Positions 13,118 through 17,480 of a stretch of 38,475 bases of DNA are shown here, one piece after another; the stretch's first letter is position 1; each line of letters begins with the position of its first letter. The stretch comes from Verrucomicrobiota bacterium (GTDB lineage Bacteria > Verrucomicrobiota > Verrucomicrobiia > Chthoniobacterales > JAFAMB01). The DNA is taken from positions 1-38,475 of the forward strand of contig JAFAIO010000448.1 of assembly GCA_019236675.1 (NCBI GenBank), in the 5' to 3' direction. Under the pieces are notes generated by a model. That model saw only the letters and a list, made by a program, of their open reading frames with translations. It was not told where the DNA came from and made no database searches. The position numbers and the translations under genes were made by a program.

Positions 13118-14038
13118 CTACCAATAATTCCGGGCGTACGGTCCGTATGGCCCGTAGGGGCCGTAAGGTCCATAGGGACCGTACGGACCGGGGCCGTAGG
13201 GGCCGTAAGGTCCGTAGGGTCTATAGGGCCCGTAGGGCGAGTACACGCGATAAGCTCTTCGTACCACGTGTAAGGCTAGCAAGGTGCGGGGATCAAGGTG
13301 CCCGGTCGGAGGTAACCCTCGCGATGCTTGAAATCTGCCGATCGCTTCCATCGTCCCTTCACCTAGCTCTCCATTCACAGGTCCGTGATAATAACCGCGA
13401 CGAGCCAGCTCGATCTGAACTCTGGCGACTACGCGCGGGTGGCCTCGGCCAGGAGCTTGTCCATAGTGCGGTCCTCCATAAGGACTCCCGTAGCCACCTT
13501 CCCCGGAAGGTCCTCGGTTGTAACCCTGGTGCGGCGGTTCGTTTTCAGGTGTTTCTTCGTTCGGTCCCTGCTCTTGTTCTTGCGGCGGGGTCCGATAAGT
13601 CGGGGTCTGAGGCTGTTCTCTCGGTCGAACCTGTTCCGAAGGTGTTGGCCGCGGAGTTGCTAGATGAGGGCGAGGAGTCGGAGACGCGACCGTGCGCGGA
13701 GGCAGGGCTTGCGGCGCGGAAGCCTGTGGTTTCGGCGAACTGGTAGGAGTGCTAGCGCCGGTTTCGTGGCGCGGCGCATTTTGTGGAGGCGGAAAATCGC
13801 CGAGCTTTAGCCCTAAAGAATGCATGGTCTCATCGTTCAACGAGCCGGTAACCTTCAAGCCGTAGCGTATTTGATAACGGCGAATCGCTGCATCCGTTTC
13901 GGAGCCCGGTTGACCAGTGGCTTCCCCATAGAAGAACCCTTGGTCTTTTAATTTTTGCTGGACCGATTTGGTCAGCTCGTCGCCCCAGGCGCTAACCGAG
14001 AAGACGGCAAGCCCGAGAATGAGAAAGAAAGTCTTCAT
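13118..14038 (-). CDS. Secreted protein with two peptidoglycan-binding domains and a GPY-repeat tail
   Basis: 306 aa. Signal peptide at 1-19 (MKTFFLILGLAVFSVSAWG). The first PG_binding_1 domain is at about 22-75 (KLKDQGFFYGEATG, AIRRYQIRYGLKVTG, DETMHSLGL). A Pro/Thr/Gln-rich low-complexity linker spans about 80-190. The second domain is at about 198-252 (ELARRGYYHGPVNG, AIGRFQASRGLPPTG, RTLLALH). The C-terminus is about 40 residues of GPYGPY repeats ending in ARNYW. It likely binds cell wall in the periplasm; no enzymatic domain is seen. The tail's nucleotide sequence is itself a near-perfect 9/12-nt tandem repeat and may vary in length between strains. Confidence 0.85.
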   Translation of the reverse strand: MKTFFLILGLAVFSVSAWGDELTKSVQQKLKDQGFFYGEATGQPGSETDAAIRRYQIRYGLKVTGSLNDETMHSLGLKLGDFPPPQNAPRHETGASTPTSSPKPQASAPQALPPRTVASPTPRPHLATPRPTPSEQVRPREQPQTPTYRTPPQEQEQGPNEETPENEPPHQGYNRGPSGEGGYGSPYGGPHYGQAPGRGHPRVVARVQIELARRGYYHGPVNGELGEGTMEAIGRFQASRGLPPTGHLDPRTLLALHVVRRAYRVYSPYGPYRPYGPYGPYGPGPYGPYGPYGPYGPYGPYARNYW

Positions 14039-14448: not shown

Positions 14449-14621
14449 ATCCTGAAGGGATGAAAGGACTGAGCCCAGGGGTTTACCCGGGGTACCAATA
14501 CGAAAACGGACCGCGAATAGAATCTTGACGGGCACGCTCTGCCGCCCTTTCAGGGCAGGGTTCTAAATACAACGTCACCCGGGGTTGAAACCCGGGCTTA
14601 GTCCTTTCATCCCTTCGGGAT
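14449..14621. repeat. Family F element, copy 2
   Basis: Ends in ATCCTGAAGGGAT (14449) and ATCCCTTCGGGAT (14609-14621). It encloses CCCAGGGGTTTACCCGGG and CCCGGGGTTGAAACCCGGG stems and GCCGCCCTTTCAGGGCAGGG, as in copy 1. It sits 15 bp downstream of the prcA stop, where it might act as a transcript-end structure, although no T-run follows. Confidence 0.85.
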
Positions 14622-14636
14622 GCGTTCCTGCCCAGT

Positions 14637-15416
14637 CTATTCTTTATACTCAGCCAGAACGCCTGCGAGCTTGTCTTCACCTAACTCGGTAAAAGCAATG
14701 CGCGTTTTCGGCTTCCGCTCGAGAAGCGCGGCCTCAACCGAGTACTCTTTTAATTGAGTCTTAAGGAAATTCTTTAGCTCGTCTCGCGGAGGAATATCGG
14801 CGTGGTCCTCATCCAAGGTATAAATCCCTACTCCCCAGGCTCTGACGGCCAAGGCTAACCCGCTACTTAAGGGTCCAACCTGCTCATTCCGAAGGAACAA
14901 AGCGATCTGCTCGGCGGAACGCCGCGTCCCGGAGATCACGGCAAAATGGTCTCTCCCCTTCCCCGAGCCCATGGAGTTGGCGGTCATAGAGCCATCGTAA
15001 TCGAGCGTAACAAAGAGATCGTCGGCTGGGATGGCACCGACTTCGGCAAAAAGTAGCCGAGCCAGGTAAGGAGCGCCGTAAATCTGTTCAAATGCCTGTT
15101 TTAATGCCGGGCTGAAGCTATAGGTCGCCATGCGACGCAAGGACACATCGCTCACTGACCGGGCAAACCCTTCAGTGCTGGCCAGTTCTATGGCCATCAT
15201 GCGAAGACGTTCGATATCTCCAGGGTGGCCGATTCCTCCGAGAGCGATCTGGTCGTAGATCTCGAAGACTTTCTTACGATCTTTGCCGAAGGTCAGGAGT
15301 AAGACTCCTTCCTGGCAACTCAACGCAATGGTGGGGCTGCCCGGGGCGAGCTCGCTTTCGATGTATTCGCGCCGATTCGCGATCGCCTCAACCCAACGAT
15401 ACGGTTCATCAATCAT
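14637..15416 (-). CDS. prcA: Proteasome subunit alpha
   Basis: The non-catalytic outer-ring subunit of a bacterial 20S proteasome, 259 aa. The proteasome fold is recognisable from SPTIALSCQEGVLLLTF, KVFEIYDQIALGGIGHPGDIERLR, the long helix around ASTEGFARS, and ALKQAFEQIYGAPYLARLLFAEVG. It lacks the N-terminal Thr of beta subunits. The sequence (EPYRWVEAIANRREYIES) matches the style of alpha subunits in UBact loci more than actinobacterial ones; this is from memory. Its ATG overlaps the prcB stop (ATGA), indicating translational coupling and stoichiometric production. The typical regulatory ATPase and ligase genes do not follow. Confidence 0.9.
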   Translation of the reverse strand: MIDEPYRWVEAIANRREYIESELAPGSPTIALSCQEGVLLLTFGKDRKKVFEIYDQIALGGIGHPGDIERLRMMAIELASTEGFARSVSDVSLRRMATYSFSPALKQAFEQIYGAPYLARLLFAEVGAIPADDLFVTLDYDGSMTANSMGSGKGRDHFAVISGTRRSAEQIALFLRNEQVGPLSSGLALAVRAWGVGIYTLDEDHADIPPRDELKNFLKTQLKEYSVEAALLERKPKTRIAFTELGEDKLAGVLAEYKE

Positions 15417-16231
15417 GATGGTGAAAGCGCCGCTTGAAACAATGAAGATAGTACGTCGTGTGGAACGGTGGTGGTACCGTCCTGGTTCACGATCTTAACG
15501 ACCGGGAAAATCTTTCCCTGACGATCGATGCCACCGGTGGCAGTATCAGCCTCTGCTGCGGTATCCAGCGCTCGTAACGCGATGGTAATCGCACCCTTCT
15601 GATCTAAATCTCGCAACGGCGTTTTTCCCCAGGCGTTCTCGTAATACAATATGCTCCTGACAGATGGCCCGCCGGAACCGCTCGCGGCAAAATCGGTAGC
15701 TTCGAACTGGGCACCCATCGCATCATAGAAAAAGACTTTGGCTGGATCGTCCGCGCCATGATCATAGGTAGCGAACAAGGGCACCACAACGCCGACACCT
15801 TGCAACACCATCCCCAGGTTGTCGCGCAGCAGCTTGGAAAGCGCGCGGACCTTGCCTTCCACGCTCATCTCCTGTAGCTGACTCCGACGATAAAATTGGA
15901 ATGAATGTTCGAGCACCCGAGCCATTTCCCAAGCGGTAGCGGGTGACCCGGCAATTGCCATTACGGAGTGCCGGTCGATCTCCAGCACTTTGTCCGCTCG
16001 ATCGTACATCACCACGTTGCCTGCGGTAGCTCGACGGTCCCCTGCAATGAGGACTCCGTTAGAAAATTTGAAGGCAAGAACCGTGGTCGCTTGCGTTTCT
16101 ACAACCGGCGGGTGTCCGCCTAAGGCCGACGGGTGTCCGTGGAGATGCTTTTGTTCTCGCAAGGCACCAGAGCGGCGCAGCAAAGTCACGAAATCGCCCG
16201 CGTTCGCGGAATTCGATTCAAGCAACTCCAT
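15413..16231 (-). CDS. prcB: Proteasome subunit beta (catalytic)
   Basis: The catalytic inner-ring subunit, 272 aa. A 48-residue propeptide precedes TTVLAFKF; removal of the propeptide would expose Thr49 as the nucleophile. Asp65 (in AGDRRAT) and Lys81 (in DRADKVLEI) sit at the positions of the conserved Asp17 and Lys33 of mature beta subunits, so it should be active. SGSGG and the later Asp residues of the beta fold are also present. It starts one base after the UBact stop codon and overlaps prcA by four bases. Together with UBact this forms a tagging-plus-protease operon. Confidence 0.95.
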   Translation of the reverse strand: MELLESNSANAGDFVTLLRRSGALREQKHLHGHPSALGGHPPVVETQATTVLAFKFSNGVLIAGDRRATAGNVVMYDRADKVLEIDRHSVMAIAGSPATAWEMARVLEHSFQFYRRSQLQEMSVEGKVRALSKLLRDNLGMVLQGVGVVVPLFATYDHGADDPAKVFFYDAMGAQFEATDFAASGSGGPSVRSILYYENAWGKTPLRDLDQKGAITIALRALDTAAEADTATGGIDRQGKIFPVVKIVNQDGTTTVPHDVLSSLFQAALSPS

Positions 16232-16232
16232 T

Positions 16233-16409
16233 TTACTGGCCAGTCCGCTGCCGGTAGCGCTTCGACTGGTTCGGATCGACCTTTCGCATCCGCTTCAACA
16301 AATCTTTCGTGTCCGGCTTAGAGACGTCGGGACTCCGCGGCCCGTCTCCATCTCCTTGCTTAGGTTCCCAAGGTGCCGGTGCTGGTGGTTTCTGCGTCCT
16401 CTCGGGCAT
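16233..16409 (-). CDS. ubact: UBact, prokaryotic ubiquitin-like protein modifier
   Basis: A 58-aa small protein. It begins MPERTQKPPAPAPWEP, has an acidic/Gly/Pro middle (QGDGDGPRSPDV), then DLLKRMRKVDP, and ends RYRQRTGQ. The MPER start, the LLKRMRKVDP block, the RYRQR segment and the Gly-Gln end match UBact, the Pup-like tag of Verrucomicrobia, Nitrospirae and other phyla. A terminal Gln would require deamidation to Glu by a Dop-like enzyme before ligation to lysines by a PafA-like ligase. It is low-complexity and intrinsically disordered, as expected. The UBact TAA and the prcB ATG are separated by one A, so the genes are coupled. It is short enough to be missed by standard length cut-offs. 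Confidence 0.9.
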   Translation of the reverse strand: MPERTQKPPAPAPWEPKQGDGDGPRSPDVSKPDTKDLLKRMRKVDPNQSKRYRQRTGQ

Positions 16410-16451
16410 ATCCGTACATTACTAAGTTACAAATTGGAAAGCAACTCGGAG

Positions 16452-16922: not shown

Positions 16923-17438
16923 TTAGTCTTGCTCGCTCGGCGATGGCGAGGGGCTGCTGCCAGATCCCGGAATTTTCAATGTCTGGCCGATCTGCAGTTT
17001 CTTTGCATCCGTTATCTTATTGAGCTGCTCGATATCGTCGACCGTGACCCCGTACTGTTTCGCGATTTGGGTCAACGTCTCGCCCTTGGCCACGACATGA
17101 GTGCGAACACCCCCCATGGCGGTTGGTGACGGATTATCGACACCAACTGTACCTGGAACTGTTGCGCTCGGGTTGATCGGAGAAGCCTTTGGCGCCGGAG
17201 ACGCCTTTGGGGTCGCTTCGTTCCCTTTCTCAAAAGTGATCCCTTTATCTTTCAATGCTTCTACTAACCGAGTGACTTCAGCAGATAACCTGTTGATACG
17301 ATCGTCCTGTGATCTTAATTCAGCCTTGATGGCTTCGAGGTCGCCTTGAGTCGATGGGCCTCCCTTCTCCTGTGCCGCCAGGAATGAGATAGGCGCCATC
17401 ATGAATGCGACCGCCGTAGCCAAGCGTTTCCCGTCCAT
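16923..17438 (-). CDS. Secreted LysM-domain protein
   Basis: 171 aa from ATG 17438, which has AAGGGAA just upstream. An N-terminal signal-like helix (RLATAVAFMMAPISFLAAQ) is followed by a coiled-coil-like stretch (DLEAIKAELRSQDDRINRLSAEV, cut here for length: about residues 32-62), a Ser/Pro/Ala linker, and one LysM domain at about 113-160 (HVVAKGETLTQIAKQYGV, IEQLNKI, LQIGQTLKIP). It likely binds peptidoglycan in the periplasm. It starts 42 bp after the TonB receptor stop, same strand, and is probably co-transcribed. The coiled coil plus LysM layout could help organise a trimer at the wall; that is inference. Confidence 0.8.
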   Translation of the reverse strand: MDGKRLATAVAFMMAPISFLAAQEKGGPSTQGDLEAIKAELRSQDDRINRLSAEVTRLVEALKDKGITFEKGNEATPKASPAPKASPINPSATVPGTVGVDNPSPTAMGGVRTHVVAKGETLTQIAKQYGVTVDDIEQLNKITDAKKLQIGQTLKIPGSGSSPSPSPSEQD

Positions 17439-17480
17439 TGTTCCCTTGTGTACAACTGTCGGAACCAGCATGCAACCGCT

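Follow-up and report, generated by a model that had tools for sequence, protein, structure and literature searches.

In the actinobacterial Pup pathway, Dop deamidates the terminal glutamine of the tag, PafA joins the resulting glutamate to lysines, and Mpa threads the tagged proteins. In Mycobacterium tuberculosis, the C-terminal GQYL of Mpa opens the chamber, with its tyrosine touching Arg26 or Glu119 of PrcA, and its carboxylate can contact PrcA Lys52 (PMC9599533). Pup-like proteins ending in G[EQ] were described in verrucomicrobia (Methylacidiphilum) by Iyer et al. in 2008, whose alignment includes Chthoniobacter flavus and who also list Nitrospirae and others (PMC2588565). Such tags form a named family, UBact, in both Pfam (PF20513) and NCBIfam (NF033388). 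Regarding the chamber itself, a 2026 review assigns one alpha and one beta subunit to bacteria of the orders that it considers, with Rhodococcus erythropolis as the apparent sole exception (PMC13022661). A partial literature search yielded no experimental paper on UBact and none on the Mpa tails of UBact systems.

Here we analyse a stretch of 38,475 nucleotides, hereafter the window, from a member of the Chthoniobacterales (Verrucomicrobiota). Our overall reading, which we hold with high confidence, is that three of its genes make a UBact tag and a 20S chamber that destroys tagged proteins. As a tag-plus-chamber unit it is an ordinary member of the known UBact-proteasome family. The comparison with related genomes additionally points to a second beta subunit and to a tyrosine-free docking site for the ATPase, and it is these two sequence-based predictions that raise the interest of the locus.

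Tag and chamber genes

The features of the window that are considered below are the following.

13118..14038, minus strand: flanking gene with PG_binding_1 domains (Pfam), near ubact in 72 of 92 loci
14637..15416, minus strand: prcA, predicted divergent 20S alpha subunit (TIGR03691, phmmer, AlphaFold2 model with Foldseek)
15413..16231, minus strand: prcB (prcB1), predicted 20S beta subunit with a propeptide of 48 residues, mature Thr1 being Thr49
16085..16087, minus strand: codon of PrcB Thr49, the predicted mature N-terminus, preceded by Ala48 and not by Gly
16233..16409, minus strand: ubact, 58-residue ubiquitin-like tag with a Gln end (PF20513, E 2e-23; NF033388, 86 bits)
16416..16421, minus strand: -10-like TAATGT of the predicted ubact promoter, six bases before the ubact ATG
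16439..16444, minus strand: -35-like TTGCTT of the predicted ubact promoter, from the pattern TTGC-N18-21-TAnnnT-N4-8-ATG
16923..17471, minus strand: flanking LysM gene (Pfam), near ubact in 77 of 92 loci

The ubact frame runs from an ATG to a C-terminal RYRQRTGQ followed by a stop codon, and the original prediction of this short gene was exact to the base. Its 5′ side reads TAA TGT ACG GAT ATG, so that the frame opens only three codons before the ATG; with an in-frame stop this close there is no alternative start, and the assigned one is secure. The proposal that the product is UBact was borne out by the profile search, in which the 58 residues score 82.3 bits with the Pfam model (cut-off 27.8) and 86.3 bits with the NCBIfam equivalog (cut-off 35), in both cases far above threshold. 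Comparison within the genus reveals that the protein is identical at 58 of 58 residues in three congeners, and that the underlying DNA differs from theirs at 5, 6 and 16 nucleotides, every one of them a third codon position. Silent-only divergence of this kind is strong evidence for a selected protein.

Among 80 relatives, the tag ends in RTGQ 66 times and in RTGE 14 times. The window copy ends in RTGQ and thus carries the Gly-[Glu/Gln] C-terminus expected for isopeptide linkage. A tag ending in Gln had been expected to depend on a Dop-type enzyme, which holds, and a fragment of dop is present in the genome (see below). Tags that end in RTGE have no need of deamidation, yet their genomes retain Dop, which fits a role of Dop in removing tags as well. 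One relative (G005) carries a second, orphan UBact (L061, 9909-10085) that is 57% identical to the window UBact, ends in RSGQ and has no proteasome genes alongside; a paralogue and a misbinned contig are both conceivable.

The order on the minus strand is ubact, prcB, prcA. Both close joints that had been described for the window are found in it, namely a single base between the ubact stop and the prcB start (CAG TAA A ATG), a gap that is conserved in the genus, and an ATGA overlap of prcB and prcA. From these joints translational coupling at both positions had been proposed. The spacing stands, but coupling is a deduction from that spacing, and the ATGA joint varies even among close relatives: in G002 and G003, the two nearest species, a TAA closes prcB immediately ahead of the prcA ATG, and we therefore rejected the overlap as a fixed feature of these operons. 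Across the loci collected, prcB accompanies ubact in 91 of 92, and in one genome (G023) prcA is unlinked from the ubact-prcB pair (L057; G023:C3:81079-81837).

PrcB scores 95 bits with PF00227, 173 bits with TIGR03690 (under the cut-off of 191.9) and 112 bits against the Rhodococcus beta subunit 2h6j, and by homology it is clearly a bacterial 20S beta subunit. Its Thr49, Asp65 and Lys81 align with mature Thr1, Asp17 and Lys33, in agreement with the catalytic register first assigned to it, and this set is complete in all 27 tag-linked proteins (PrcB1) and all four copies of a second kind (PrcB2, described below) that were aligned. The usual residue at propeptide position -1 in the proteasome beta family is Gly, and Gly is indeed present in the Rhodococcus protein in the same alignment. 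However, tag-linked PrcB has Ala at this position in 25 of 27 sequences and Ser in the other two, with Gly in none.

PrcA is more difficult to recognize by profile, reaching neither the cut-off of TIGR03691 (60.4 bits against 139.05) nor that of PF00227 (21.3 bits against 22.4). A phmmer comparison with M. tuberculosis PrcA gives 37.5 bits. The best PDB matches of an AlphaFold2 model (pTM 0.70, mean pLDDT 65) are bacterial proteasome chains, with a Foldseek E value of 3e-10, and the window PrcA is predicted to be a divergent alpha subunit with the proteasome-subunit fold.

The two flanking genes listed above are regarded here simply as syntenic neighbours. Most Chthoniobacterales loci have the order LysM gene, ubact, prcB, prcA, Amidase_3, PG-binding gene (see L154, 11799-12605), from which Amidase_3 is missing in the lineage of the window. 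A link of the proteasome neighbourhood to the cell wall is possible. Downstream of prcA, positions 14483-14637 of the window contain GGGTTTCAACCCCGGGT-like inverted motifs.

A predicted leaderless tag mRNA

The TTGCTT and TAATGT elements upstream of ubact are 17 bases apart. The pattern TTGC-N18-21-TAnnnT-N4-8-ATG is present at 72 of 81 ubact starts, compared to 6 of 472 other ORF starts from the same loci, counts in which the relatives are not independent but in which the spacing to the ATG is maintained even as the intervening bases vary. A Shine-Dalgarno-like 4-mer was found at none of the 81 ubact starts. Transcription would probably begin at the ATG or within a few bases of it, since the promoter ends about six bases upstream and no Shine-Dalgarno element intervenes, and the tag mRNA is thus likely to be leaderless. 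Promoters of the ubact type were also partly seen by eye at mpa, pafA and prcB2, but are clear only for prcB2 of one congener (G001), and we do not claim them.

Partner enzymes and distribution

The host genome (G000) comprises 5.87 Mb in 565 contigs and is 84.67% complete, with the assembly broken inside dop. A full-length pafA is located on another contig (G000:C417); its product scores 412 bits with PF03136 and is nearer to PafA than to Dop, although under the PafA equivalog cut-off. Dop is represented only by its last 71 residues, at the very end of contig C371, and is present in the congeners. For Mpa, TIGR03689 gave nothing over its cut-off in the host genome, where the matches resembled other AAA proteins, and a search of the same 84.67% complete assembly with a congener's Mpa found none. 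All three congeners carry mpa directly before dop.

In a complete genome from another order of the class (G125), a single stretch contains mpa, dop, ubact, prcB, prcA and pafA, in that order. By comparison, the gene set is split over three places in the Chthoniobacterales. The window had been viewed as a complete tag-plus-chamber unit, and both tag and chamber are indeed present, but ligase, deamidase and ATPase are encoded at two other loci.

In the class, 73 of 384 genomes encode UBact (over cut-off), and the set of genomes that encode PrcB is identical to this one. Among 57 relatives, PafA and Dop track UBact and PrcB with one exception (G030), a genome that is 96% complete and in which UBact, prcB and prcA were found (L056) but PafA, Dop and Mpa were not. 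The best 80 of 301 matches in a contig scan all belong, judged by title, to Verrucomicrobiota or the PVC group. This co-occurrence, the presence of Mpa in relatives and the identities of UBact, PrcB, PafA and the Dop fragment are read directly from the sequences.

Several family features are maintained in the partners. Dop and PafA both retain the G-[IL]-E-T-E-Y-G start, and a long insertion ahead of the GARFYNDHAHPEYSTPE motif distinguishes Dop from PafA. Mpa has a coiled-coil region, both OB domains and an AAA domain, and its C-terminal part lines up with the beta-grasp region of the M. tuberculosis protein. In this clade, none of PrcA, PrcB, PafA, Dop and Mpa reaches its NCBIfam equivalog cut-off, and the enzyme roles are therefore assigned by homology.

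The docking site of the ATPase

In 30 of 30 Mpa proteins of the class (L094-L117, L211-L216), the C-terminus consists of two residues drawn from V and I, with no tyrosine and no GQYL. The PrcA side was compared by pairing 27 PrcA sequences with the M. tuberculosis protein, and because this is pairwise alignment of distant sequences the pairing is to be read accordingly: the equivalent of Lys52 (Lys49 in the window) is invariant and that of Asp144 is kept, but the Arg26 position holds Ala, Thr, Pro, Ser or such, never Arg, and the Glu119 position holds Leu or a similar aliphatic residue. The two sides of the tyrosine contact therefore appear to have been lost together, the tyrosine from Mpa and the Arg26 and Glu119 equivalents from PrcA. 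We infer that Mpa docks by its two-aliphatic C-terminus instead of GQYL.

A second beta gene in the genus

All four genomes of the window's genus carry a second prcB (L124, L125, L126 and L127), which is absent from every other proteasome-bearing genome in the samples of relatives and of the class. In the host genome, this prcB2 is located on a contig of 4.4 kb (C519; L124, 735-1553, plus strand), encodes a protein 79% identical to the window PrcB and has neither prcA nor ubact alongside. Each of the four genomes has prcA in single copy. PrcB2 is placed inside the genus clade of PrcB (support 97/92), in a tree that is compatible with one duplication or with two.

Upstream of prcB2 in G001 the ubact promoter block recurs almost exactly, together with a decayed sequence similar to the beginning of ubact, whose score of 50 was reached by none of 500 shuffles. 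The presence of both suggests that the duplication probably took a ubact-prcB unit, from which the tag was then lost. The prcB2 frame is open in all four genomes, and dN/dS values of ∼0.06-0.12 among the three close copies indicate purifying selection. At position -1, all four PrcB2 proteins have Gly.

Across all four PrcB2 proteins, the fixed differences in the core are confined to residues 49, 50 and 190. Residue 49 is Pro in 27 of 27 PrcB1 sequences but Phe or Trp in all four PrcB2 sequences, and residue 50 is Ala in the former (27 of 27) and Gly in the latter (four of four). In solved proteasomes, residues such as 31, 35, 46 and 49 belong to the S1 pocket or its loop (PMC11452676). For the clade of three close PrcB2 members, three of 12 clade-specific changes (31 Thr, 35 Phe and 49 Phe) fall in the S1 set, with a p value of 0.007 that is indicative only, because the set, although drawn from general knowledge and fixed before the count, was chosen with the changes at 49 and 50 already in view. 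Ten control PrcB1 lineages together have no clade-specific change in this set. With all four PrcB2 proteins the enrichment is not significant (p 0.11) because the change at 49 is the only one that G001 shares. The simplest reading of these data is that PrcB2 is a working alternative beta subunit whose S1 pocket would be narrowed.

We tentatively propose that PrcB2 joins the single PrcA, by itself or together with PrcB1, in a second 20S particle, in which an S1 pocket filled by Phe or Trp 49 would prefer other cleavage sites, a bacterial form of subunit exchange, and that the whole clade docks its ATPase without a tyrosine. This combined proposal is possible rather than established, and it competes with other explanations that are considered below.

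Discussion

The enzymatic steps of the mechanism that we envisage are modelled on the actinobacterial pathway. The tag would be translated from a leaderless mRNA. Dop, encoded elsewhere, would convert the terminal Gln of UBact to Glu, and PafA would join this Glu to lysines of target proteins. The Mpa ring, whose gene is next to dop, may grip UBact by its N-terminal coiled coils, unfold the target and pass it by way of the PrcA ring to the Thr1 sites in PrcB. Within the genus, PrcB2 might replace PrcB1 and thereby shift the cleavage preference, and this is the least certain step.

Two alternatives concern the tag itself. A frame as short as ubact could have arisen by chance upstream of prcB, and ORF listings of this kind are rich in spurious frames; however, this explanation is refuted both by two curated family models that score well above cut-off and by the absence of any amino-acid change in the genus against up to 16 silent ones, and its probability is vanishingly small. 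Conversely, UBact could be a real modifier whose attachment is mostly non-degradative, with the proteasome a mere neighbour. The retention of Dop where UBact already ends in Glu is in keeping with such a role, as removal of the tag may matter in itself. Nevertheless, the one-to-one occurrence of UBact and PrcB across 384 genomes, the operon linkage of ubact with proteasome genes, and an Mpa with coiled-coil, OB and AAA parts all argue for degradation, and we regard a mostly non-degradative tag as improbable.

For the second beta gene, a redundant or decaying duplicate of unchanged function is a serious, if somewhat doubtful, alternative to a working subunit. It would account for the lack of prcA and ubact neighbours and for the decay of the upstream ubact copy in G001, and the tree does not settle how PrcB2 and PrcB1 branch inside the genus clade. 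Decay is harder to reconcile with a gene that is open and catalytically complete in four genomes and, in the close three, under purifying selection, or with the concentration of changes in the S1 pocket, which has no counterpart in the control lineages, and Gly at -1 likewise speaks against it. Contaminating contigs binned into these genomes are very unlikely to be the source of PrcB2, even though the genomes are metagenome-assembled, the contig in the host genome is just 4.4 kb long and G002 has a contamination of 9%. The gene occurs in each of the genus's four genomes, of which three have contamination of 3% or less, its product falls inside the genus PrcB clade (97/92), and the G001 copy bears the genus's own ubact promoter sequence.

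With the tag-plus-chamber unit, a system already known is confirmed in soil bacteria of a group that is common but uncultured. One alpha subunit with two catalytic betas, one of them with an altered pocket, allows one to ask directly if bacteria use subunit exchange to adjust what their proteasomes produce. In addition, the rule by which the ATPase docks becomes testable through the absence of the Mpa tyrosine and the corresponding loss in PrcA.

Compared with known UBact-proteasome systems, the tag length, the R-T-G-[QE] end, the linkage to the proteasome and the PafA, Dop and Mpa partners are alike. What differs is the distribution of the Chthoniobacterales genes over three loci, the predicted leaderless tag mRNA and, in the window's genus, the second beta subunit. 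The Pup-proteasome of M. tuberculosis and other actinobacteria shares the alpha/beta chamber, the Thr1 nucleophile and the PafA/Dop pair, and its Mpa resembles the one described here in the coiled coil, OB and AAA parts and in the C-terminal part aligned to the beta-grasp region. However, UBact here takes the place of Pup, the Mpa tail is two V/I residues instead of GQYL, PrcA lacks the Arg26 and Glu119 equivalents, and the last propeptide residue of the tag-linked PrcB is Ala or Ser and not Gly.

Rhodococcus erythropolis, with two alpha and two beta genes (PMC13022661), likewise has several beta subunits in one bacterium, whereas in the genus studied here beta alone is doubled beside a single prcA, and the second gene stands apart from the operon, has no tag gene next to it and encodes an altered S1 pocket. 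The beta exchange of the vertebrate immunoproteasome offers a further likeness, by analogy only, in that a paralogue of the catalytic subunit has a changed S1 pocket, although its origin is independent and the likeness does not extend to induced exchange. Set beside the one-alpha, one-beta pattern of the 2026 review (PMC13022661), the lone extra beta subunit of this genus would constitute a novel variant.
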